Source of the DNA: Algoriphagus sp.
Lineage (GTDB): Bacteria; Bacteroidota; Bacteroidia; Cytophagales; Cyclobacteriaceae
Length of the DNA: 36,929 bases
Assembly (NCBI GenBank): GCA_021298245.1
Contig: JAJTDZ010000019.1
Location: 1-36,929 of the forward strand
Direction of reading: 5' to 3'
The first letter of the stretch is position 1; the number at the start of each line of letters is the position of its first letter. Below, one piece after another: positions 535 to 33,971 of this stretch. The notes under the pieces are model-generated. The model had not been told where the DNA came from. It ran no database searches and saw only the letters and a list, made by a program, of their open reading frames with translations. Made by a program: the position numbers and the translations under genes.

Positions 535-2064
535 ATGCTAAATTACCAAACCTTTACCCTTGACAACGGATTGGAAGTCATCGTGCACGAAGACCATAGC
601 TCCAAAATCGCCGTGGTCAATCTCCTCTACAAGGTAGGATCTAGGATGGAAGAGGAAGGGAAAACAGGCTTGGCTCATTTTTTTGAGCACCTGATGTTTG
701 GCAGCTCCGCCCACGTTCCTGTTTTTGACCGGGAACTGGAGCGAGTGGGGGGATCATGCAATGCATTTACCAGTCCTGACATCACCAACTATTACATGAC
801 CTTGCCCTCCTCCAACCTAGAAACTGCCTTTTGGCTGGAATCGGACCGCATGGGATTTCCCAGCCTTACCGAAAAAACCATTGAAACCCAGCGGAAGGTG
901 GTCATAGAAGAATTTAAGCAACGTTACCTCAACCAGCCTTATGGGGATGTCTGGCATCACTTACGTGGCTTGAGTTATGAAAAACACCCCTACCGCTGGC
1001 CTACCATCGGAGAAAAGATCGCAGACATAGAAGGATATACTCCAGACCAAGTTTGGGATTTTTATGAAAGACACTATCATCCCGGCAACGCCATCCTGGT
1101 CGTGGCAGGGGATGTCACCAAAGACCAAGTAGCCAGGTTGGCCAGCAAATGGTTTGGCCCCCTTCCTTCCAAAACTAGTGCCAAGCCTAGAATTGCAATT
1201 GAGCCACTGCAAACCAAAAAGAGAGAGAAAGAAGTACAGGCGCAAGTTCCTACCGACGCACTCTACAAAGCCTTCAAGATGCCTGCCAAGGGAGCCCCTG
1301 GGTACCTAGAGGCCGATGTGATCAGCGATTTGTTGGGCTTGGGAAAATCTTCCCCTTTGGAGCAGCGCTTGGTCAAGCAAGGAAAACTTTTTGCTTCCAT
1401 AGGAGCTTACATCACAGGATCCGTAGATCCAGGATTACTGATTTTTTCAGGAAAAATGGAACAGGGAATAACTGCCCGAGAAGCAGAAGAAGCATTGCAG
1501 GAAGTGATTGTTGATTATTTTAGCCAAGAAATAGCAGAAGAGTCCCTTCAAAAAATCACCAACCAGGGGGAAGCCATGAAGGCCTACGAATCCATTCATA
1601 TCCTGACTCGTGCGATGAACCTAGCGTATTTTGCCCATTTAGGTAATCCTGACTTATATTGGAAAGAATTTGAGGAAAAGTCTGCCTGTAGTCCAAAACA
1701 AATTAGTTCCTGGGCCAGACAATTGCTATCAGAAGAATCCGCCTCCGTGCTTTATTACATAGGATACCATTTTTCAGACCAAGACCCTACCTACAAAGGA
1801 GTGGATAGCAAAATCCTCCTTCAAGAAGTCATGAAAATGATTCGTAAGGAAGGGTATGAACTTGGCAACGTGGATGCCACCGTGTGTTTGCAAGTCCCCA
1901 AACTGAATCCCCATATTCCTGCCATGAAAACCTGCTTGTCAAAAGTCATGGAGGTGGAAGAAAATTCGATTTCGATCAAAGCCACTACCTCGGAGCACCT
2001 GGGATTTGTGGGTAGGCAAGAGGGAGTAGCCGCCTACTGTACTGCCTTGATTTATCGCGTATGA
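535..2064 (+). CDS. M16 zinc peptidase fused in frame to a C-terminal IspF fragment (chimeric frame)
   Basis: Residues 1-408 from the ATG at 535 are a nearly complete M16 (insulinase-like) peptidase. The inverted zinc motif HFFEH is at 48-52 and the third-ligand glutamate is near 125 in VVIEEFKQR. An upstream in-frame TTG at 529 is less likely as the start. The frame then changes identity at ASVLYY|IGYHF (about 1758/1759). The last ~101 residues match the C-terminal two thirds of IspF (2-C-methyl-D-erythritol 2,4-cyclodiphosphate synthase): YKGVDSK, YELGNVDATV, PHIPAMK and IKATTSEHLGFVGRQEG. The first ~56 IspF residues are absent, including the family's metal ligands (E. coli D8, H10, H42), so this IspF part cannot be active. 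Ordinary homologues are two separate genes, so this is probably a deletion, natural or from assembly. The TGA stop overlaps the mnmD ATG (ATGA). Both halves are assigned with high confidence. Confidence 0.9.
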   Translation: MLNYQTFTLDNGLEVIVHEDHSSKIAVVNLLYKVGSRMEEEGKTGLAHFFEHLMFGSSAHVPVFDRELERVGGSCNAFTSPDITNYYMTLPSSNLETAFWLESDRMGFPSLTEKTIETQRKVVIEEFKQRYLNQPYGDVWHHLRGLSYEKHPYRWPTIGEKIADIEGYTPDQVWDFYERHYHPGNAILVVAGDVTKDQVARLASKWFGPLPSKTSAKPRIAIEPLQTKKREKEVQAQVPTDALYKAFKMPAKGAPGYLEADVISDLLGLGKSSPLEQRLVKQGKLFASIGAYITGSVDPGLLIFSGKMEQGITAREAEEALQEVIVDYFSQEIAEESLQKITNQGEAMKAYESIHILTRAMNLAYFAHLGNPDLYWKEFEEKSACSPKQISSWARQLLSEESASVLYYIGYHFSDQDPTYKGVDSKILLQEVMKMIRKEGYELGNVDATVCLQVPKLNPHIPAMKTCLSKVMEVEENSISIKATTSEHLGFVGRQEGVAAYCTALIYRV

Positions 2065-14853: not shown

Positions 14854-17655
14854 TTAAAATGCCCTCTCTTCCAAGTGCTCACCTAGCTTCAATCTAGGGA
14901 CTCCCTGCAGCATCCAATCAGGTGCGGGTAGCCCTTTGAGGTGATGGTCAAAAAATTCCATCATGCGTACACTGTAGTCCTTTCGATTTTCCATTTTCCC
15001 GAGACCGTGATTTTCTCCCAGGTATTGAACCAGGATGACGGGTTTTTTAAGCCGACGCAAGGCATTGTAAAATTCTACTCCCTGTGTAAAGTCCACCGCC
15101 CCATCTTTATCGTTGTGAAGCAGGAGTAGGGGTGTCTCCACATTTTTCACGTGGTAAATGGGGCTATTTCTTTCGTAAGCCTCCCAGTTTTCCCAGGGTC
15201 CTCCTAAAAATCTACCCTGAGAGGCTTCAAAGATCGACATGTTGCCAGCTCCGGTATTCCAATAGATCAGGTCATACATGGAAATCATGTTGGTCAAGGG
15301 AGCGCCAGCAGCAGCAGCTTTAAATCGCTTCGTTTGGGTAATCAAAAAGGATGTTTGGTATCCTCCCCAACTGTGTCCATGAAGCCCCATTTTTTCTGGG
15401 TCAATCACGCCCGTTTTCAAAGCAGCATCCACCGCAGGAAGTACCGACCAAACTGCCGACATGCCTGGATCATCCAAGGTGTACACAATGTCGGGAACGA
15501 GCACTGCGTAGCCGTTGCTGGTATACAAACTTGGATTCCACCCCGTGCCACTGTAGGCAGGATTGGACCAATTGTGCAAGGTTTGGGAGAGTTTTTCGTA
15601 GTAATACACCACGGTAGGATAACGCATGCCTTCTTGATACCCTGCAGGCAGAAACAGTGCCGCTTGAAGAGAGTCCCCTTTGGCAGAAACATAATCCACC
15701 AACCTCACCCCAGCGGACCAGCTGTATGTATTGAAAGCAGGGGCATTTTCTGTGACTTGCTTGGCTTGACTAAGGGAAGCATCTCCCAAATAAACTTGGG
15801 TAGGCTCGTTGAACTTCTCTTTGGTGTAGGTAAACACGTTTGCTTTTTTGGCTTTGGCCAAACCTTGGATATTGGCATCCTCCCAAAGCAAAATTTTTGC
15901 TCCTTTAGCCAGTCCTGCCTTGGATGGATTTAGGGTGGCCATCCCGCTTTTTTTCGTTCGCTCCCCATAGAGACGCAGGTACACGGGCTTACTCAGATCA
16001 ATGCCTTTTTCTTCAGGATCCAAGTTGATGCGGTATTGGTATCGGATGCCCTGTGACCTTCCCGTTTGCGTCACGTTGGTAGGACTTTCCTTAGGAGAGA
16101 GTGGTACTTGCCAGATGTCCCAACCGTCACGCAAGAGAAGGTATTTGCCATCGCTGCTCCAGCCCAAGGGGCTGAGCAATGCAAGTTTCAGGTTGCGATC
16201 TTCTTCCTCATCTACAAAAGAAACAGGTAGATTCTCGGTAAGGTTACGATGGGTATTTGAAAGGATATCATATACAAAAAAGTGCCCCTCTTTCCCATAT
16301 AATAATTTCTTACCGTCTGTAGAAGGGCGAGGCATGGAGGCTACCGTGGGCTGGTAAAATTTCTCAAAAAGTAATTTTTTTTCTCCAGTCTTCAAATCCA
16401 CAACGTAATAATCCAGATAGCTTTGACCATTGAGGTTGATGTCCAATTCATAGGCTCTTTGGTCAGAACCTAGACCAAAATGCTGCTGGGGCAAAATATT
16501 GAGTTCCCGCATGCTGCTGTCCTGGAGGGCCAGGTGTTTTTTGCTCAGAATGTCGTAGCTAGCCCAGAAACTGTAATTTTTGTCCATGCCTTCCATCACT
16601 TGCTGTCGTGACTGCAGGCGTTCGTCTTGCCAATGCCAGATAGTCATCTCTGGCTTTTTAGCATCCTTTGGTTTTGGAATAGAATCGGCACCGACTTCTT
16701 TTTTAGGGGTTTCTTTTTCAACCAAAACCAGAGGGTGGATGCCATAAAAAAGTCTGCTCAAATCATCTGACCACATGGGACGACGGTTGGGGCTGATGGT
16801 ATATTTTTGATCAAATCCTAAAGAATCCTTCTCAGGGTCGTAGAGGGTAATTTGAGGATTGCTGAGGTTTTTAACACCTACTACAGCACCTTTTTCCTGC
16901 TTGTACTTTTTGTCCTCTTTAAATTTTAGGGCGGCAAAACCATCCCCTTTTTCTGTCCAATTGATGCTTTGATAAGCTGCCTCATCCGAATCTAACACCT
17001 GAATGGCATTACTGGCCAATTGTAGCAAATACAGGCCGTTGCCTTGGGAATTGGCAGCATCCACCGCATAAGCAAGATGCGTCCCGGTTTTGTTTACGGC
17101 GTGTTCTCGCACATTTCCCAGGTTTTGGGACTTGCCTGTTTTGAGGTGATGAATAAGCAAATCGGTGCCTTTGGCATCACTGTCTCCAGATTTGGGAAGG
17201 GAGATAAGGAGGTGCGAAGAGGCTTCCCCATTGAAATAAAATCCCCCTATATCTTCAAAGGTTTTTTTCTCACCCGTACCCAAGTGTACCAAATGAAGTT
17301 TTTCTTTTGGAGAATTTTCATTGGCCTTTTTTTCGGCAAACTTAGGTAACTCTTTGAAGGCCATCCATTGGCTATCTTCACTAAATTCAAAGCTGGCAAA
17401 GGAAGTATTCCCAATGGGGTACGATTTTTTGCTATCCAAATCAGCTAGTTTTTGGAGAATCAATTCTCCATCGGCTTCTACTCCGGTGAGCACGTAAGCC
17501 ATCCATTGCCCATCAGGAGAGAGTTTGAAGCCAGAGTTGGGCATGGATTTCCAAGTGGCTACATCTTTCCAGGAAATGGGACGGGTATCTTGGGCTTGTG
17601 CCTGGCTAAGTGTGGCGCAAGCCAATGCCAAAAAGAGGAGCAGGTATTTTTTCAT
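14854..17655 (-). CDS. Secreted S9 family peptidase (prolyl oligopeptidase fold)
   Basis: A 933-residue exported serine peptidase of the S9 clan, probably periplasmic and acting on oligopeptides. The signal peptide MKKYLLLFLALACATLSQAQ begins at the ATG at 17653-17655. Residues about 30-600 look like an irregular beta-propeller, with segments such as SPDGQWMAYV and WSSDGKYLLLRDGWDIW. The C-terminal alpha/beta hydrolase domain holds the catalytic triad: Ser762 in GLHGHSWGGYQTS, Asp851 in HNDKDGAVDFTQ and His883 in LGENHGL. Length and triad indicate an intact gene. It stands alone, with a strong terminator after it. Confidence 0.93.
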   Translation of the reverse strand: MKKYLLLFLALACATLSQAQAQDTRPISWKDVATWKSMPNSGFKLSPDGQWMAYVLTGVEADGELILQKLADLDSKKSYPIGNTSFASFEFSEDSQWMAFKELPKFAEKKANENSPKEKLHLVHLGTGEKKTFEDIGGFYFNGEASSHLLISLPKSGDSDAKGTDLLIHHLKTGKSQNLGNVREHAVNKTGTHLAYAVDAANSQGNGLYLLQLASNAIQVLDSDEAAYQSINWTEKGDGFAALKFKEDKKYKQEKGAVVGVKNLSNPQITLYDPEKDSLGFDQKYTISPNRRPMWSDDLSRLFYGIHPLVLVEKETPKKEVGADSIPKPKDAKKPEMTIWHWQDERLQSRQQVMEGMDKNYSFWASYDILSKKHLALQDSSMRELNILPQQHFGLGSDQRAYELDINLNGQSYLDYYVVDLKTGEKKLLFEKFYQPTVASMPRPSTDGKKLLYGKEGHFFVYDILSNTHRNLTENLPVSFVDEEEDRNLKLALLSPLGWSSDGKYLLLRDGWDIWQVPLSPKESPTNVTQTGRSQGIRYQYRINLDPEEKGIDLSKPVYLRLYGERTKKSGMATLNPSKAGLAKGAKILLWEDANIQGLAKAKKANVFTYTKEKFNEPTQVYLGDASLSQAKQVTENAPAFNTYSWSAGVRLVDYVSAKGDSLQAALFLPAGYQEGMRYPTVVYYYEKLSQTLHNWSNPAYSGTGWNPSLYTSNGYAVLVPDIVYTLDDPGMSAVWSVLPAVDAALKTGVIDPEKMGLHGHSWGGYQTSFLITQTKRFKAAAAGAPLTNMISMYDLIYWNTGAGNMSIFEASQGRFLGGPWENWEAYERNSPIYHVKNVETPLLLLHNDKDGAVDFTQGVEFYNALRRLKKPVILVQYLGENHGLGKMENRKDYSVRMMEFFDHHLKGLPAPDWMLQGVPRLKLGEHLEERAF

Positions 17656-17830
17656 AGAGTTGTGTGCTAACCAAAGGGAATATTATGAGATTTTCACAAT
17701 ACCACAAAACAGAAAGCAACAACCCTTGCAGAAAAGTGTACAGCAAAAGGTGATAGACCTTACCTATTCTCCAAAAAAACCAAGGATTAAAAGGAAAGGG
17801 CAAAGGGTAAGGCAATACGATAAACAACCC

Positions 17831-17870
17831 TAAAAAAGATTCTGAAAATCACATCTAGTCGCTTTTTCAG
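17831..17870 (-). terminator. Possible terminator of the AT-rich five-gene run
   Basis: On the minus strand, CTGAAAA (rc of 17864-17870) pairs with TTTTCAG (rc of 17842-17848) around a 15-base loop, followed by AATCTTTTTT. The stem is only seven base pairs and the loop is large, so the call is tentative. It lies about 50 bases beyond the stop of the last small gene, where an operon end would be expected. Confidence 0.4.
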
Positions 17871-17916
17871 CCAATTACTGAGCCCGATAAGAATGGAAGG
17901 ATCATTTAGGCCAGCC

Positions 17917-18120
17917 TCAACTTCGAAGAATCAACCTATCCATTTTTTCTTTGGTTAAAAAATAAATCAAAGATCCTGACCCTTGGAAAAGAATCACCAC
18001 CCAAATCCAGCCAGTCTTCACTTGCCTAGGATTATGAAAGTTACTTTTCACGATGTCAATTAGGGCATAAATTATTGCTCCAATATTCAGAGCCAAAAGA
18101 AGTCCAATTAAAAGTTCCAT
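17917..18120 (-). CDS. Small PLDc_N-like membrane protein (67 aa)
   Basis: A 67-residue protein with two hydrophobic segments (about 3-22 and 38-56). It resembles the N-terminal membrane domain of cardiolipin synthases and nisin-immunity-like proteins (PLDc_N): ALIDIVKSNF, then a W-I-W-V-V segment, a G-S-L-I-Y-F-L turn and basic ends. No phospholipase domain follows, so it is not an enzyme by itself. PLDc_N-type proteins are sometimes found as immunity or accessory membrane proteins, which would fit its place at the end of the AT-rich run; that is inference. It begins 38 bases after the 69-aa membrane protein gene. Confidence 0.72.
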   Translation of the reverse strand: MELLIGLLLALNIGAIIYALIDIVKSNFHNPRQVKTGWIWVVILFQGSGSLIYFLTKEKMDRLILRS

Positions 18121-18158
18121 AGGTTTTTTCCAATTAGTTTAAGAATCTAAATAGTACG

Positions 18159-18368
18159 CTACTTATGCCTTGTGCTTTTTTCCTTGAGTTTATTAGTTTT
18201 TAAAATCGCAAACCCAAAATTAGTAAGGTGGTAAAAGAGAATTCCAGCAAGTATAGAAGTATAGAAACCAACTTTAGTGGGATTAAATGAGCCATTCGAT
18301 CCCAATAACATGAAGAGCAAGGCAAATCCGATGCTTGCGAGTAAAAGCCTTCTATTGAAATTTTCCAT
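18159..18368 (-). CDS. Small two-segment membrane protein of unknown function (69 aa)
   Basis: I do not recognise a family. The 69-residue product has a basic N-terminus (MENFNRRLL), two hydrophobic segments (about 8-23 and 34-56) and a strongly basic tail with lysines and arginines. That topology puts both ends in the cytoplasm. It starts six bases after the stop of the glycine-zipper lipoprotein gene, so it is certainly co-transcribed and perhaps coupled with it. An immunity or accessory role for the preceding lipoprotein is possible but has no direct support. Confidence 0.65.
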   Translation of the reverse strand: MENFNRRLLLASIGFALLFMLLGSNGSFNPTKVGFYTSILAGILFYHLTNFGFAILKTNKLKEKSTRHK

Positions 18369-18374
18369 ATCTTT

Positions 18375-19238
18375 TTATCTAAAACAAGAGGTTAAAAGTT
18401 GTGAGGCAATTCCGTAAGCGATGCCGGAGATAAATCCACCGGCTCCTCCCACAACCCCTGCACCTACACATCCAGTCACTGTTCCAACCAATGGAAATGC
18501 AACAGTTCCGGCGGTTGCTCCTGCATAACACCCTCCAGCAGCACCCCCAACTAACCCAACAACTCCATCAGCAAATATACTTCTTGTACTTATGGAACAT
18601 CCGGTAACTCTGTCAAAAGCGCCATCTACCCCAAGTTCAATTGCAAGAATTCTACGAATATCATCAATACCCCCGCTTTCAAGAAATTCAATTAAACTGG
18701 TCACTCCCGTACTAAATGCAAGCAATTGAAATTTTTCATCATAAGAAAGAGAAGAAGAAACTACAGCTGTTTGAAATTCGGATGTTTTGGACCTCCCTAA
18801 ACTAATGCCATCATCATTTAACAAGTCGTCTACAAAGGGCTGAACTAAATTTAATTGATTTTCGCTATAAACCCCAAAAGCGGAAAGATCTACAGAACCA
18901 CCCGATCTTAAATTTGAAGGATTATGGGTCAAATTTAAATGGCTGTAATTGTTTGAAAGATTTAAAATAACCTCCTGATTTGCGTCGAAATAGTGCCCAT
19001 TCATTCCTGTTAGGACATCCTTAACTAACTCTTTTTGATCCAAATTGATTTCATTTCTCCCATTAGATTTTAGGTTTTTAGCTAAATTTGAAACTGCCAA
19101 ATTCAATCCATCTGAATTCATTTCTTGCAGTAGTGAAATTTCTTGTTCCAAATTAGAATTGGGAACCAAATCCTGATTTTGTTCACATGAAGAAATGAAA
19201 ATAATTAGCGAGAAAATTGGAAAAAATAACTTTTTCAT
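18375..19238 (-). CDS. Lipoprotein with glycine-zipper C-terminus, function unknown
   Basis: A 287-residue protein with a lipoprotein signal (FISSC, lipidated Cys18). A mostly helical, polar middle part (about 25-210) contains no family I recognise. The C-terminal part (about 224-276) is dominated by Gly, Ala and Val with G-x3-G spacing, for example VGLVGGAAGGCYAGATAG and GAGVVGGAGGFISG. Cysteines lie at 214, 237, 257 and 285. Such glycine zippers insert in or cross membranes and occur in pore-forming toxins, hydrophobic bacteriocins and outer-membrane lipoproteins. Its ATG overlaps the stop of the 68-aa gene by four bases, and a small membrane-protein gene follows after six bases. It could be a secreted or surface effector, or a structural envelope protein. 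Confidence 0.75.
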   Translation of the reverse strand: MKKLFFPIFSLIIFISSCEQNQDLVPNSNLEQEISLLQEMNSDGLNLAVSNLAKNLKSNGRNEINLDQKELVKDVLTGMNGHYFDANQEVILNLSNNYSHLNLTHNPSNLRSGGSVDLSAFGVYSENQLNLVQPFVDDLLNDDGISLGRSKTSEFQTAVVSSSLSYDEKFQLLAFSTGVTSLIEFLESGGIDDIRRILAIELGVDGAFDRVTGCSISTRSIFADGVVGLVGGAAGGCYAGATAGTVAFPLVGTVTGCVGAGVVGGAGGFISGIAYGIASQLLTSCFR

Positions 19239-19441
19239 GGTTTAAAAAATTTAAAATTTGGGTATGTTTCTTTTTTTCGGATGCCTTTGAGCCACTTCAA
19301 GCAATCTACACCTAGACTTATCCCAATCAAATTGGAAGAGATTTTCCAATTTGATCTTTTGCTTGACTCGGAAAAAAAACTTTCGCTTTCCTTGAGATGA
19401 ATTTCCAAACAACCCACTGCAATTTCCTTGCGGTCAATCAT
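19235..19441 (-). CDS. Possible 68-aa protein overlapping both neighbours
   Basis: A 68-residue frame starting at the ATG at 19439-19441, eight bases inside the end of the HTH gene. It ends with a TGA that shares four bases with the lipoprotein ATG. Such double overlap is typical of real, coupled genes and unlikely by chance. No family is recognised; the product is mixed in character, with two cysteines (11 and 47), a short hydrophobic stretch (SNLIGISLGV) and a basic C-terminus. Against it, a perfect 12-bp inverted repeat lies within it (19326-19355), so the stretch could instead be a regulatory leader. The frame also extends upstream to 19525, but inside the HTH gene. Confidence 0.45.
   Translation of the reverse strand: MIDRKEIAVGCLEIHLKESESFFSESSKRSNWKISSNLIGISLGVDCLKWLKGIRKKETYPNFKFFKP
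19326..19355. promoter_or_regulatory. Perfect 12-bp inverted repeat, possible operator or leader hairpin
   Basis: ATCAAATTGGAA (19326-19337) and TTCCAATTTGAT (19344-19355) form a perfect inverted repeat with a 6-base spacer GAGATT. It lies between the winged-helix regulator and the lipoprotein start, inside the possible 68-aa frame. No T-run follows on either strand, so a simple terminator is unlikely. An operator for the adjacent regulator, or an RNA hairpin in the operon leader, would fit. Confidence 0.5.
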
Positions 19442-19646
19442 TTCTATCAGAAAAATAATAGGAATTCTCTTCAGTAGAATAGCTGATGTCAATTTCCAGA
19501 TAAAGTCGTAAATCATCGAGCACATTGTAGACCATTCGTTCTTTTATGCCCAGTTTTAGTGCTAATTCCTTGGGATTTCCTGTCTTCTTCTTTTCAATCA
19601 ACTCAATCAAGAGCTTGTATCGCTCGTAATACTTCAATCCAGTCAT
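19434..19646 (-). CDS. Small winged-helix HTH protein (70 aa), probable operon regulator
   Basis: A 70-residue protein that is essentially a single HTH_11/DeoR-like winged helix. A lysine-rich first helix (YYERYKLLIELIEKKKTG) is followed by the helix-turn-helix NPKELALKLGIKERMVYNVL and a wing ending SYSTEENSYYFS. It has no sensor domain, so it probably acts as a simple DNA-binding regulator, perhaps of its own operon. The start is the ATG at 19644-19646, preceded by a roughly 230-base, extremely AT-rich region that probably holds the promoter. It is the first gene of the five-gene run. Confidence 0.8.
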   Translation of the reverse strand: MTGLKYYERYKLLIELIEKKKTGNPKELALKLGIKERMVYNVLDDLRLYLEIDISYSTEENSYYFSDRND

Positions 19647-19821
19647 AGTGGTTTTGCAAAAAAAATACGCTCCTTAAAAAATCCGAATCCAAAAATCAAA
19701 GAATTTTAAAAATAAATATTTTAAAAGTATAAATAAAAATTAGTTTTATTTAATATTTAATTTTTTTAAGCCATTTAATTACTTTAAATAAACGTTAATT
19801 AATTTAAATTCCAAAACTAGT
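19647..19821 (-). promoter_or_regulatory. Very AT-rich upstream region of the HTH-led gene run
   Basis: The stretch is almost pure A and T around 19690-19800, with repeated TTTAAAT/ATTTAA-like tracts, far more AT-rich than the rest of the window. It separates the HTH gene from the amidohydrolase terminator. It is the likely promoter region of the HTH-led run and may be bound by a nucleoid protein; no exact promoter element can be fixed. Confidence 0.4.
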
Positions 19822-19866
19822 TGATAAAAAAAAGCCTGTCAGTATTAAAATCTGACAGGCCTTAAT
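19822..19866 (-). terminator. Rho-independent terminator of the amidohydrolase gene
   Basis: GCCTGTCAG (19834-19842) pairs perfectly with CTGACAGGC (19852-19860) around a 9-base AT-rich loop. On the minus strand the stem is followed by eight T residues. It sits just past the amidohydrolase stop at 19879. Confidence 0.85.
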
Positions 19867-19878
19867 TTTTTTATACCC

Positions 19879-21582
19879 CTACTTCTTCTGGTACACCACT
19901 TTTCCTCCCACCACGGTCATCTGCACCTTGGTTTGAAGAATTTCATCTTCCGGGATTTCCATGATGTTTTTGTCAAATACCGTAAAGTCTGCCGCCTTGC
20001 CAACAGCAATAGATCCTTTAAAATTTTCTTCAAATTCCGCATAGGCTCCATCCAAGGTATATGACTTCAAGGCCTGTTCCCTTGTCATTTTTTGATCCCC
20101 CTCGTATCCGCCTTCAGGTAATCCTTGCAGGGTCTTGCGGGTCACGGATGCATAAAAGGAAGGGATAGGATCTACGGGCTCTACGGGCGCATCGGTGCCA
20201 TTTGCAATGCGAGCCCCGGTTTGGAAGAGCTTCTGCCATACGTAAGCCCCATCGATGATGCGCTTTTCCCCCATGCGATCGATGGCCCAAGGGCGGTCGG
20301 AACTCAAATGAATGGCCTGCATGGCGGCTATCACCCCCAACTTTCCAAATCTAGGGATATCGTCTGGGTGCAAATGCTGGGCATGCTCAATGCGGAAGCG
20401 ATGGTCTTTGGCTTCAGGAAACTTGGCAAAAGCCGCCTCGTAGCGATCCAATATTTCCTGATTGGCACGATCTCCAATGGCGTGTGAACACACTTGAAAT
20501 CCCAATGGTAAGGCCTTTTCCGACACCTCGGTTACCACCGACATGGGCAAGGTCTCATGCCCCCGGTGGCCAGGCTTGTCTGAGTAATCCTCTAGCAACC
20601 AAGCCCCCCAAGGGCCCAAAGCCCCATCGCAATTGAGCTTGATGGAGCGTACCGTTACCCAGTGATTGGGATCTATCATGGGCCCTTTTTTATACCAGGC
20701 TTCCAACAAGTCGGGCTGTCTGCCCGTCAGCATGATGTACATGCGGGCGGTCAGTTTGCCCTCTTTTTGAAATTTTTGCACCAAATCAATGACCTCCTGG
20801 CCTGAACCTGCATCGTGGAAGGAAGTAATTCCTTTTTCAGCCAATTCTTTCAAGGCCAAGGTCAATGCCTCTTCATTTTTTTCTGGGGTAGTTTCAGGGA
20901 TCAATTTGCTCACTAGGGTGGACGCACGCTCTACCAAAACCCCTGTAGGATTGCCTAGCTCGTCTCTCAACACTTCTCCTCCCTCTACTTCTTGGGTGGG
21001 CTTTTCGCTGCGCAAAGGAGTGATACCAGCCAGCTCCATGGCTTTTTGATTGACAAAAGAGGCATGTCCAGAGGCATGAGCAAGGTATACAGGGTTATTG
21101 GGACTTACCGCACTTAGGGCTTCGTGGGTTTGAAAACCCTTGATCGTTTTTTCAGGCATTTTGAGCCACTTGTCTTGGTGCCATCCCCTGCCCGTAATCC
21201 AATCCCCAGGCTTGGCTACCGCTGCGGCTTCTGCTACTTTTTCGATGAGCTCTTCGTAGGTCTGAATTCCCATCAAATCGATTTCCAATTTGTTGTAACC
21301 AATCCCCATCAAATGGGCATGGGATTCGATAAATCCTGGAGTCATGGTTTTGCCTTGAAGATCAATGACCTCGGTAGCTGTACCAACATAGGCCTGTATC
21401 TCAGCGGTCGTCCCCAAGGCTAGGATCAAACCATCTTTCACCGCCACGGCCTCTACTTTCGGGTTGGCTTCGTCTACCGTATAAACGATTCCATTGATGA
21501 AAACTTGATCAGCAGGCTCAGGACCCGCATGGCAGCTCCAAAGTAGGAAACCTAAAAAAAGCGAAAAGAGAATGGATTTCAT
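19879..21582 (-). CDS. Amidohydrolase family lipoprotein (YtcJ-like, amidohydrolase 3)
   Basis: A 567-residue metal-dependent hydrolase, predicted to be anchored outside the cytoplasm by a lipobox (LLWSC, Cys17). The N-terminal beta-sandwich strand DQVFINGIVYTVDE precedes the barrel metal motif ESHAHL (H88, H90). Later markers are a GRGWHQDKW segment, SHAIGDRANQEILDRYE, RIEHAQHL and ANGTDAPVEPVDP with the catalytic-type aspartate. This is the amidohydrolase 3/YtcJ pattern; such enzymes hydrolyse N-acyl or cyclic amide bonds, but the physiological substrate is unknown. The gene is intact and monocistronic, bounded by a strong terminator. Confidence 0.9.
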   Translation of the reverse strand: MKSILFSLFLGFLLWSCHAGPEPADQVFINGIVYTVDEANPKVEAVAVKDGLILALGTTAEIQAYVGTATEVIDLQGKTMTPGFIESHAHLMGIGYNKLEIDLMGIQTYEELIEKVAEAAAVAKPGDWITGRGWHQDKWLKMPEKTIKGFQTHEALSAVSPNNPVYLAHASGHASFVNQKAMELAGITPLRSEKPTQEVEGGEVLRDELGNPTGVLVERASTLVSKLIPETTPEKNEEALTLALKELAEKGITSFHDAGSGQEVIDLVQKFQKEGKLTARMYIMLTGRQPDLLEAWYKKGPMIDPNHWVTVRSIKLNCDGALGPWGAWLLEDYSDKPGHRGHETLPMSVVTEVSEKALPLGFQVCSHAIGDRANQEILDRYEAAFAKFPEAKDHRFRIEHAQHLHPDDIPRFGKLGVIAAMQAIHLSSDRPWAIDRMGEKRIIDGAYVWQKLFQTGARIANGTDAPVEPVDPIPSFYASVTRKTLQGLPEGGYEGDQKMTREQALKSYTLDGAYAEFEENFKGSIAVGKAADFTVFDKNIMEIPEDEILQTKVQMTVVGGKVVYQKK

Positions 21583-31539: not shown

Positions 31540-31711
31540 CAAGTTTTTTTACCTGATTTTATTCTTCCCATTTTTGATTTTTTTCCTGACTCTTTGTGCC
31601 TTTGCACGGAATATTTCCCACTTGTCAAAAACCCTAGACCCAATTTGGGTTTTCGATTAATTTTAAGTGAAGGTGTGGATTGCCCACCTTTTTTCCTACT
31701 TTAACTTTTGC

Positions 31712-33971
31712 ATGAAGCTTTTTACCCCCTTATTTTATTGCCTTTTTTCCTTGGGTTTAGTCTTGTGTTGCTTTTCTCAAAGCCAGGCACAGGGCAGAAT
31801 CAAGGGAATAGTCCATGAATTGGCCACTGCCCAGCCTCTACCCTTCGCTACCGTGAGCGTATATAGCCCACAAGACAGCTTGGTAGGTGGAGGGATTACA
31901 GATGAAAAAGGGCGCTACGAGATTGAATTGCCCTTGGGTACGTATTACGCTTTGGTAGAATTTATGGGATTCGAATCCATAACATCTGACCCTTTTACCC
32001 TAACTCGCGACAAAGCTACCTTAGAATTGCCCCTACTATCCCTTCAGGCTCAGGCCTCCGACCTAGAGGAGGTGCTGGTCCAAGGCGAAAAAACCCTGAT
32101 GGAATTATCCCTAGACAAAAGGATCTTCAATGTGGGAAAGGACCTGGCCAATGCTGGAGGTAATGCTTCGGACATTCTCATGAATCTCCCCTCGGTAGCA
32201 GTAGACCCAGAAGGAAATGTACGCTTGAGAGGCTCTGCCAATGTACGGATCCTGATCGACGGAAAACCCTCGGGTCTGGTAAGCTTTAAGGGAAGTAGTG
32301 GACTCAGGCAACTCCCCGCCAACTTGGTGGAGCGGGTGGAAGTAATCACCAATCCTTCTGCGAGGTACGAAGCCGAAGGGATGGCAGGGGTCATCAACAT
32401 CATTTTAAAGAAAGACAACAAGCAAGGCTTCAATGGCTCGGGGGAGGTGGTGACCGGATCTCCATTGAATTTGGGAATCACTGCCAACGTGAACTATAGA
32501 AAAAACCGCATCAATTGGTTTATCAACTACGGAATCGCCCATAGAAAAGGCCCGGGTCGAGGAAACTTGTCACAGGAAGTGTACAATGAAAATGGTACTA
32601 CTTCCCTACTTCAGCAAAGCGTCAGGAGTACGGTAACTAGCCTCAACAATTCCCTACGAGGGGGCTTGGATTATTTCTTTAGCGAGCAAAGCATCCTTAC
32701 CGCTTCTTACGTTTGGAGGAGGAGCGATGCCCACCGCATCACCGATACAAGGCCATGAGCTGAATGCTTCTTTCACCTACCTCAATTATTGGGAAAGGTC
32801 AGACCAACTCTTTACAGAAAATGCATTTGACCCCATGGGACAAACTCGCCCCAAGGGTTCGCTCATCCAAACCTCCCTCAATGACGAATACGAAAATCAA
32901 TTTCTCTTACAAGTAGATTATACCCAGCCCTTTGCTACCAAAGGCAAAATTGAAACTGGGATTCGGACTAGTTTTCGAGAAATGGAAAACGACTACTTGG
33001 TCCAACAAAAAATGCCCTCGGGAAATTTTGAAACCTTGGAGGGTTTGGACAACGTGTTTTTGTACGATGAAAATATCCTTGCTGCCTACGGCATTCTAGG
33101 CAACGAATCAGGGGCCTGGAGCTACCAAGCAGGCCTGAGAGCCGAGTATTCCGATATTGAGACGAGACTGGTAGAAACCAAGGAATCGAACCCTAGAACC
33201 TACACCAATCTATTTCCTAGCGGACACCTCAACTACAAAGCCAACGAAAAAAATGCATTCCAGGTGAGCTACAGCCGTAGGGTGAGAAGACCGGTTTACA
33301 ATGACCTAAGCCCCTACGTGACCTTCTCTGACCAGCGCAATTTCTTTTCCGGCAATCCCAACTTAAATCCAGAATTTACCGATGCCTTCGAAATGGGATA
33401 CATTCGCTATGGAGAAAAAAGCACCCTATTCTCCACCTTGTACTACCGCAATACCCTGGATAAAATTCAACGGATTAGAAGCGTACAACCCAATGGTTTT
33501 TCGATAACAGCCCCCTACAACCTAGACCGAGAAGTGTCCTATGGATTGGAATTTAGCGGGGATTACGCGGCTACCCGATGGTGGAAATTGGATTTCAATG
33601 CCAACTTCTTTTATGCCGACGTAGATGGGAGCAATCTGGATCAAAACTTCCAAGCAAGCACTACTTCAGTGCTCTTTCGGCAGAGTTCCCGATTTACCCT
33701 TCCCAAAAGTTGGGACTTGCAGCTGAGGGCCAATTACGAAGCAAAGAGAAGAACAGCACAAGGAATACAAAAAGGAATATTTTTCTTAGACCTATCGGCG
33801 AGCAAAAAAATATTACAGCAGCGGGGAACCCTAATTTTAACGGTAGCTGACGTGCTTAACTCTCGAATCAATCGCTACCTTACCGAAGGAGCAAATTTTC
33901 TCACGGAAGGAGAATCTCAAATGATCCTAAGACAAACTAACCTCACCTTTTCTTACCGCATCAATCCCTAG
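31712..33971 (+). pseudogene. TonB-dependent receptor-type outer-membrane beta-barrel protein, broken near 32745
   Basis: The 5' part (31712-32758) has a signal peptide (FSLGLVLCCFSQSQAQ) and a carboxypeptidase-regulatory beta-sandwich (RIKGIVHELATAQPLPFATV onwards). It continues with a plug domain (SDILMNLPSVAVDPEGNVRLRG, SARYEAEGMAGVINIILKKD) and the first barrel strands, then stops at TGA after AHRITDTRP. The rest of the barrel continues in another frame from about 32745 (GHELNASFTYLNYWERSDQL) to 33971, ending in an aromatic-rich strand (LTFSYRINP). Some 35-60 barrel residues seem to be missing at the break, by comparison with the usual family layout. Intact members (outer membrane beta-barrel family, about 800 residues) import or bind unknown ligands. 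I take the ATG at 31712 as the start; the earlier GTG at 31667 is less likely. Confidence 0.85.

Follow-up and report, generated by a model that had tools for sequence, protein, structure and literature searches.

IspF is a cyclase that forms a homotrimer with active sites between its subunits, and its gene is found next to those of an M16 peptidase and an mnmC2-like protein in Algoriphagus relatives (e.g. VGMU01000024.1). The window, that is, the whole stretch of 36,929 nucleotides analysed here, shows the same cluster in the same order and orientation. In the relative, however, the M16 gene and ispF are separate and overlapping, and the cluster holds 191 bp more than the window, in which M16 and IspF parts share a single reading frame. 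Bifunctional IspD/IspF enzymes likewise carry IspF at the C-terminal end of a longer protein, but their partner domain is IspD, while that of the window's frame is a peptidase. Furthermore, the solved chains of these bifunctional enzymes match nearly all of the relative's IspF (residues 6-153 and 6-151), whereas the window is devoid of the N-terminal part. Another point of comparison is provided by the missing-sequence errors of draft metagenome assemblies, which, as here with losses of 38-217 bp, are clean, fall in conserved genes and leave no runs of N. A difference is that the frames in the window happen to form one long open reading frame (ORF).

The M16-ispF frame and its counterpart in the closest genome

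In a draft genome (G000) of 96 contigs and 2.48 Mb, rated 83.4% complete, the window makes up contig 85. The named genomes closest to this draft are mostly called Algoriphagus. On the forward strand, an ORF extends without interruption from 535 to 2064 and encodes 509 amino acids counted from the ATG at 535; the ORF lister places the start of this frame at a TTG at 529. The N-terminal portion follows the M16 architecture, with Pfam matches to Peptidase_M16 (PF00675, residues 15-129, 6e-24) and Peptidase_M16_C (PF05193, residues 169-343, 7.9e-27). HxxEH is the zinc motif of M16 peptidases, and HFFEH in the translation fits it, so that both domains and the motif are present. The C-terminal portion matches YgbB/IspF (PF02542, residues 403-506, 1.7e-35) with 123.1 bits against a cut-off of 26.7, covering only positions 51-154 of the 155 in the profile, and the NCBIfam model TIGR00151 gives 111.8 bits, under its cut-off of 116.45. 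The E-values exclude chance as the source of the Pfam matches. The first-pass annotation, which had described an uninterrupted frame reading as M16 and then as IspF, is borne out by these matches. Its in-frame chimera is true of the letters, but very probably no such gene exists in the organism.

The closest genome (G002, the metagenome-assembled genome K_Offshore_40m) carries the locus on its 35,279-base contig 24, VGMU01000024.1. Positions 422-1756 of the window align to it at 93.0% DNA identity and positions 1757-2764 at 95.8%. Between 1756 and 1757, 191 bp of G002 are missing, with 2 bp common to both flanks. The first-pass annotation had advised a comparison with the M16-ispF region of relatives; in G002, the M16 gene (413 codons), ispF (160 codons) and the mnmC2-like gene are separate and overlapping, the M16 stop overlapping the ispF ATG.

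On the basis of the domain matches and the G002 alignment, the window can be divided into four features, all on the forward strand. The M16 zinc peptidase gene occupies 535-1756 and is without its last five codons and stop, which are lost with the 191 bp. The join at 1756-1757 is followed by the last 101 codons and stop of ispF at 1759-2064, whose start codon, first 59 codons and metal-ligand motifs are absent. The gene at 2061-2753 encodes an MnmC2-type tRNA methyltransferase (170 bits with NCBIfam NF033855, whose cut-off is 136), and its ATG overlaps the ispF stop in the ATGA at 2061-2064. The dimensions proposed in the first-pass annotation hold up well against G002. The M16 part, described as ending within a few residues of its normal end, is five residues short, and the missing DNA, put at no less than about 170 bases, amounts to 191 bp. 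The N-terminal loss in IspF is present, with a slightly different size, namely 59 of 160 residues instead of about 56.

In G002, IspF has the motifs GYDVH and VGHSD, both of which can be aligned gap-free with IspF chains of solved structure and fall in the absent stretch. As had been proposed, the metal ligands are part of the missing sequence, and the fragment has neither the N-terminal Asp-x-His nor the subsequent His. PMC5821942 gives Asp9, His11 and His43 as the metal ligands of B. subtilis IspF; GYDVH and VGHSD should be their counterparts, the chains aligned here being others than that of B. subtilis.

Distribution in the genus and the MEP pathway of the draft

Across 72 genomes of the genus, a search with PF02542 gave one match each in 67 and none in five. 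The match covers profile positions 1-154 in 66 of these 67, and only that of the draft is shortened (51-154). Of 29 loci read for the M16 end, 28 have an ORF that ends at 410-415 residues, the remaining one being cut off. In a set of 29 loci from relatives (L063-L091), a full-length ispF ORF was recovered at 27. The fusion thus recurs neither in the M16 ends at the 29 loci nor in the ispF matches of the 72 genomes. A candidate M16-IspF fusion of 596 amino acids in G005 and G006 was rejected, as the two genes share a frame but are separated by a stop. Among the five genomes with no ispF match, the M16 match reaches within 4 bases of a contig edge in two (G001 and G068) and spans residues 3-211 only in a third (G048). 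In the remaining two (G010 and G065), all M16 proteins found were more distant ones. Although rated 100% complete, G065 has neither a PF02542 match nor a close M16 protein, yet IspG, DXR, IspH and IspD are present; its ispF region possibly lies between contigs.

A search for a plasmid source returned 272 records, all below 60% identity, of which the best two are confined to the M16 part. In viral_contigs, the pattern of the junction is absent, an uninformative negative, and none of the papers searched contains both 'ispF' and 'M16 peptidase'.

In the MEP pathway, IspG and IspH act downstream of IspF, and an inactive IspF would be lethal unless isoprenoids were supplied by another route. All four further MEP enzymes searched for, namely IspD, DXR, IspG and IspH, are encoded in the draft, the IspH family by two genes, likewise in G002. 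HMG-CoA reductase had no match in any of nine genomes searched, including the draft, while five of 14 control genomes were matched. The fragment is the only PF02542 match in the 83.4% complete draft, and a search of the draft with 211 bp of G002 spanning the missing stretch gave nothing better than E = 0.45. As these MEP enzymes are kept and the searches revealed neither an HMG-CoA reductase nor another copy of ispF, a real loss of ispF should be lethal. The first-pass annotation had offered a second copy, a bypass or an assembly deletion as ways to reconcile the remnant with this pathway, and its interpretation stands in part: neither a second copy nor an HMG-CoA reductase was found in the draft, and the assembly deletion is backed by a draft-wide excess of similar deletions.

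Clean losses in the draft and the origin of the frame

To survey such deletions, 0.57 Mb of the draft (40 stretches and the window) was aligned against 1.63 Mb of G002. At more than 85% identity, 273,256 letters from 24 of the 41 stretches aligned, corresponding to 0.27 of 2.48 Mb, or about a ninth of the draft. We call an indel clean when the two genomes differ by 30 bp or more in net length and no more than 10 bases of the shorter side are unmatched; events in which each side has over 10 unmatched bases were not counted. Relative to G002, the draft contains 17 clean indels, comprising 14 losses (38, 63, 75, 85, 99, 99, 104, 108, 111, 145, 173, 191, 202 and 217 bp) and three gains (34, 39 and 72 bp). 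All ten losses of at least 90 bp lie inside ORFs of G002; four of their lengths are divisible by three and six are not. Ten losses against no gains in this size range correspond to p of about 0.002 in a sign test that assumes independent events, which is not quite satisfied because four of the ten sit in one stretch, L172 (G000:C12:1-20000). The 14 losses are spread over eight stretches, six of them in L172, and owing to this clustering are likewise not independent. Parts of L172 are 82-87% identical to G002, and the stretch may be poorly assembled or mixed in origin.

Six of the ten affected G002 proteins, IspF not among them, were run against NCBIfam. UvrB, MnmE, TrpB and ribosomal protein L15 (rplO) were named above cut-off and are nearly full length in G002; of the other two, one shows a below-cut-off likeness to metal ABC transporter permeases and one is unmatched. 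With a single close relative as the yardstick, the direction of change rests on the near-completeness of the family members in G002, which was tested against named families for these four genes as well as ispF. At the nine places outside the window, the ORFs of the draft are shorter or split. For nine of the ten places, dN/dS could be obtained for the 3' part past the break and ranges from 0 to 0.087, and the tails after frame-changing losses in L171 and L270 carry 9 and 32 synonymous changes, respectively, with no nonsynonymous change in either. The coding sequence past the breaks is still under purifying selection.

The flanking matches at the 14 loss places have at most 6 bp in common, and at four of the 14, 2-4 bases fit neither flank; collapse of long repeats was rejected as a cause on these grounds. 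The only run of N in the fetched stretches of the draft (33 bases, L266) lies at none of the loss places. One of the three gains (L175:13640-13770) is an exact 34-bp tandem copy of a segment that is single in G002, the outcome to be expected when pieces that overlap are placed end to end; of the remaining two, one is located in a repeat-rich stretch and the other is short and unclear. The joins may have been produced by scaffold gaps that were dropped, by chimeric reads or at some other step.

Given such clean losses elsewhere in the draft, in conserved genes and regardless of frame, we are confident that the M16-ispF frame is an artefact of assembly. In the real genome, the M16 gene, ispF and the mnmC2-like gene are very probably three distinct genes that overlap, like those of the sister genome G002. 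Joining two sequence pieces in the metagenome draft would have dropped about 191 bp, comprising the M16 end and the first 59 codons of ispF, and a chance agreement of the two frames would have created an unbroken ORF that is fictitious. The sampled cells would then presumably carry an intact ispF. We infer that the losses in this draft share one cause, faulty joins, and consider this far likelier than a set of gene-breaking losses all too young for decay. As UvrB, MnmE and TrpB are, to our knowledge, not generally essential, lethality does not speak against real decay at those genes.

The remnant itself bears on how old a real event could be. Compared with G002, its 101 ispF codons differ by 12 synonymous and two nonsynonymous changes (dN/dS 0.041), against dN/dS values of 0.176 for the M16 part and 0.054 for the methyltransferase. 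With a remnant free of decay, any real deletion must be very recent. Such a deletion, either compensated by another ispF in the part of the genome that is unassembled or present in some cells only, seems to us very unlikely. More than one ispF match occurs in none of the 67 matched genomes among the 72, although a copy could be absent from an assembly that is 83% complete. The unbroken ORF and the 2 bp shared at the join, as microhomology deletions may show, are consistent with a real event, but the compared part holds 13 other clean deletions, for which one recent event does not account. The lack of decay past the breaks at nine of ten places also speaks against it.

Still less probable is a functional M16-IspF fusion, in which the IspF part would have acquired a new role while isoprenoids are made by another route or another enzyme performs the cyclodiphosphate step. 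The openness of the frame throughout and the conservation of its IspF part agree with such a function, yet frameshifted gene tails in the same draft are equally conserved. In addition, the metal-ligand part is absent, IspG and IspH are retained although they act after IspF, HMG-CoA reductase is without a match, and no other of the 72 genus genomes has the fusion. Least likely of all, we consider it highly improbable that a freshwater Algoriphagus-like bacterium truly lost the metal-binding part of its sole ispF, with the remainder fused to M16 and the substrate of IspG made in some unknown way. Were the fusion real, the organism would use the MEP pathway while lacking a normal IspF.

As an assembly artefact, the M16-ispF fusion is very probably of no importance as biology; its value is that of a warning. 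The compared part contains about one clean loss of 38-217 bp per 20 kb, at joins free of N, and at that rate apparent fusions, truncations and losses in this draft are not trustworthy without reads.

Other differences from G002 and an apparently split gene

Less clean length differences, with unmatched bases in both genomes, run in both directions. Net losses in the draft include 51 bp in L168 and 6 bp in L261, and net gains include 100 and 69 bp in L279 and 21 bp in L172. Within the window, positions 2806-2982, past the methyltransferase gene, are unaligned and comprise 177 bp compared to 346 bp in G002 (net loss 169 bp). Positions 17572-19891 comprise 2,320 bp, as opposed to 161 bp in G002 (net gain 2159 bp); two ORFs within this segment, at 18381-19241 and 19241-19543 on the reverse strand, have no Pfam match. 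Finally, an outer-membrane receptor-like gene at 31667-33968 on the forward strand is seemingly split over two overlapping frames, the first with CarboxypepD_reg and Plug domains and the second with a full OMP_b-brl_3 barrel; a frameshift or one more faulty join may be responsible.
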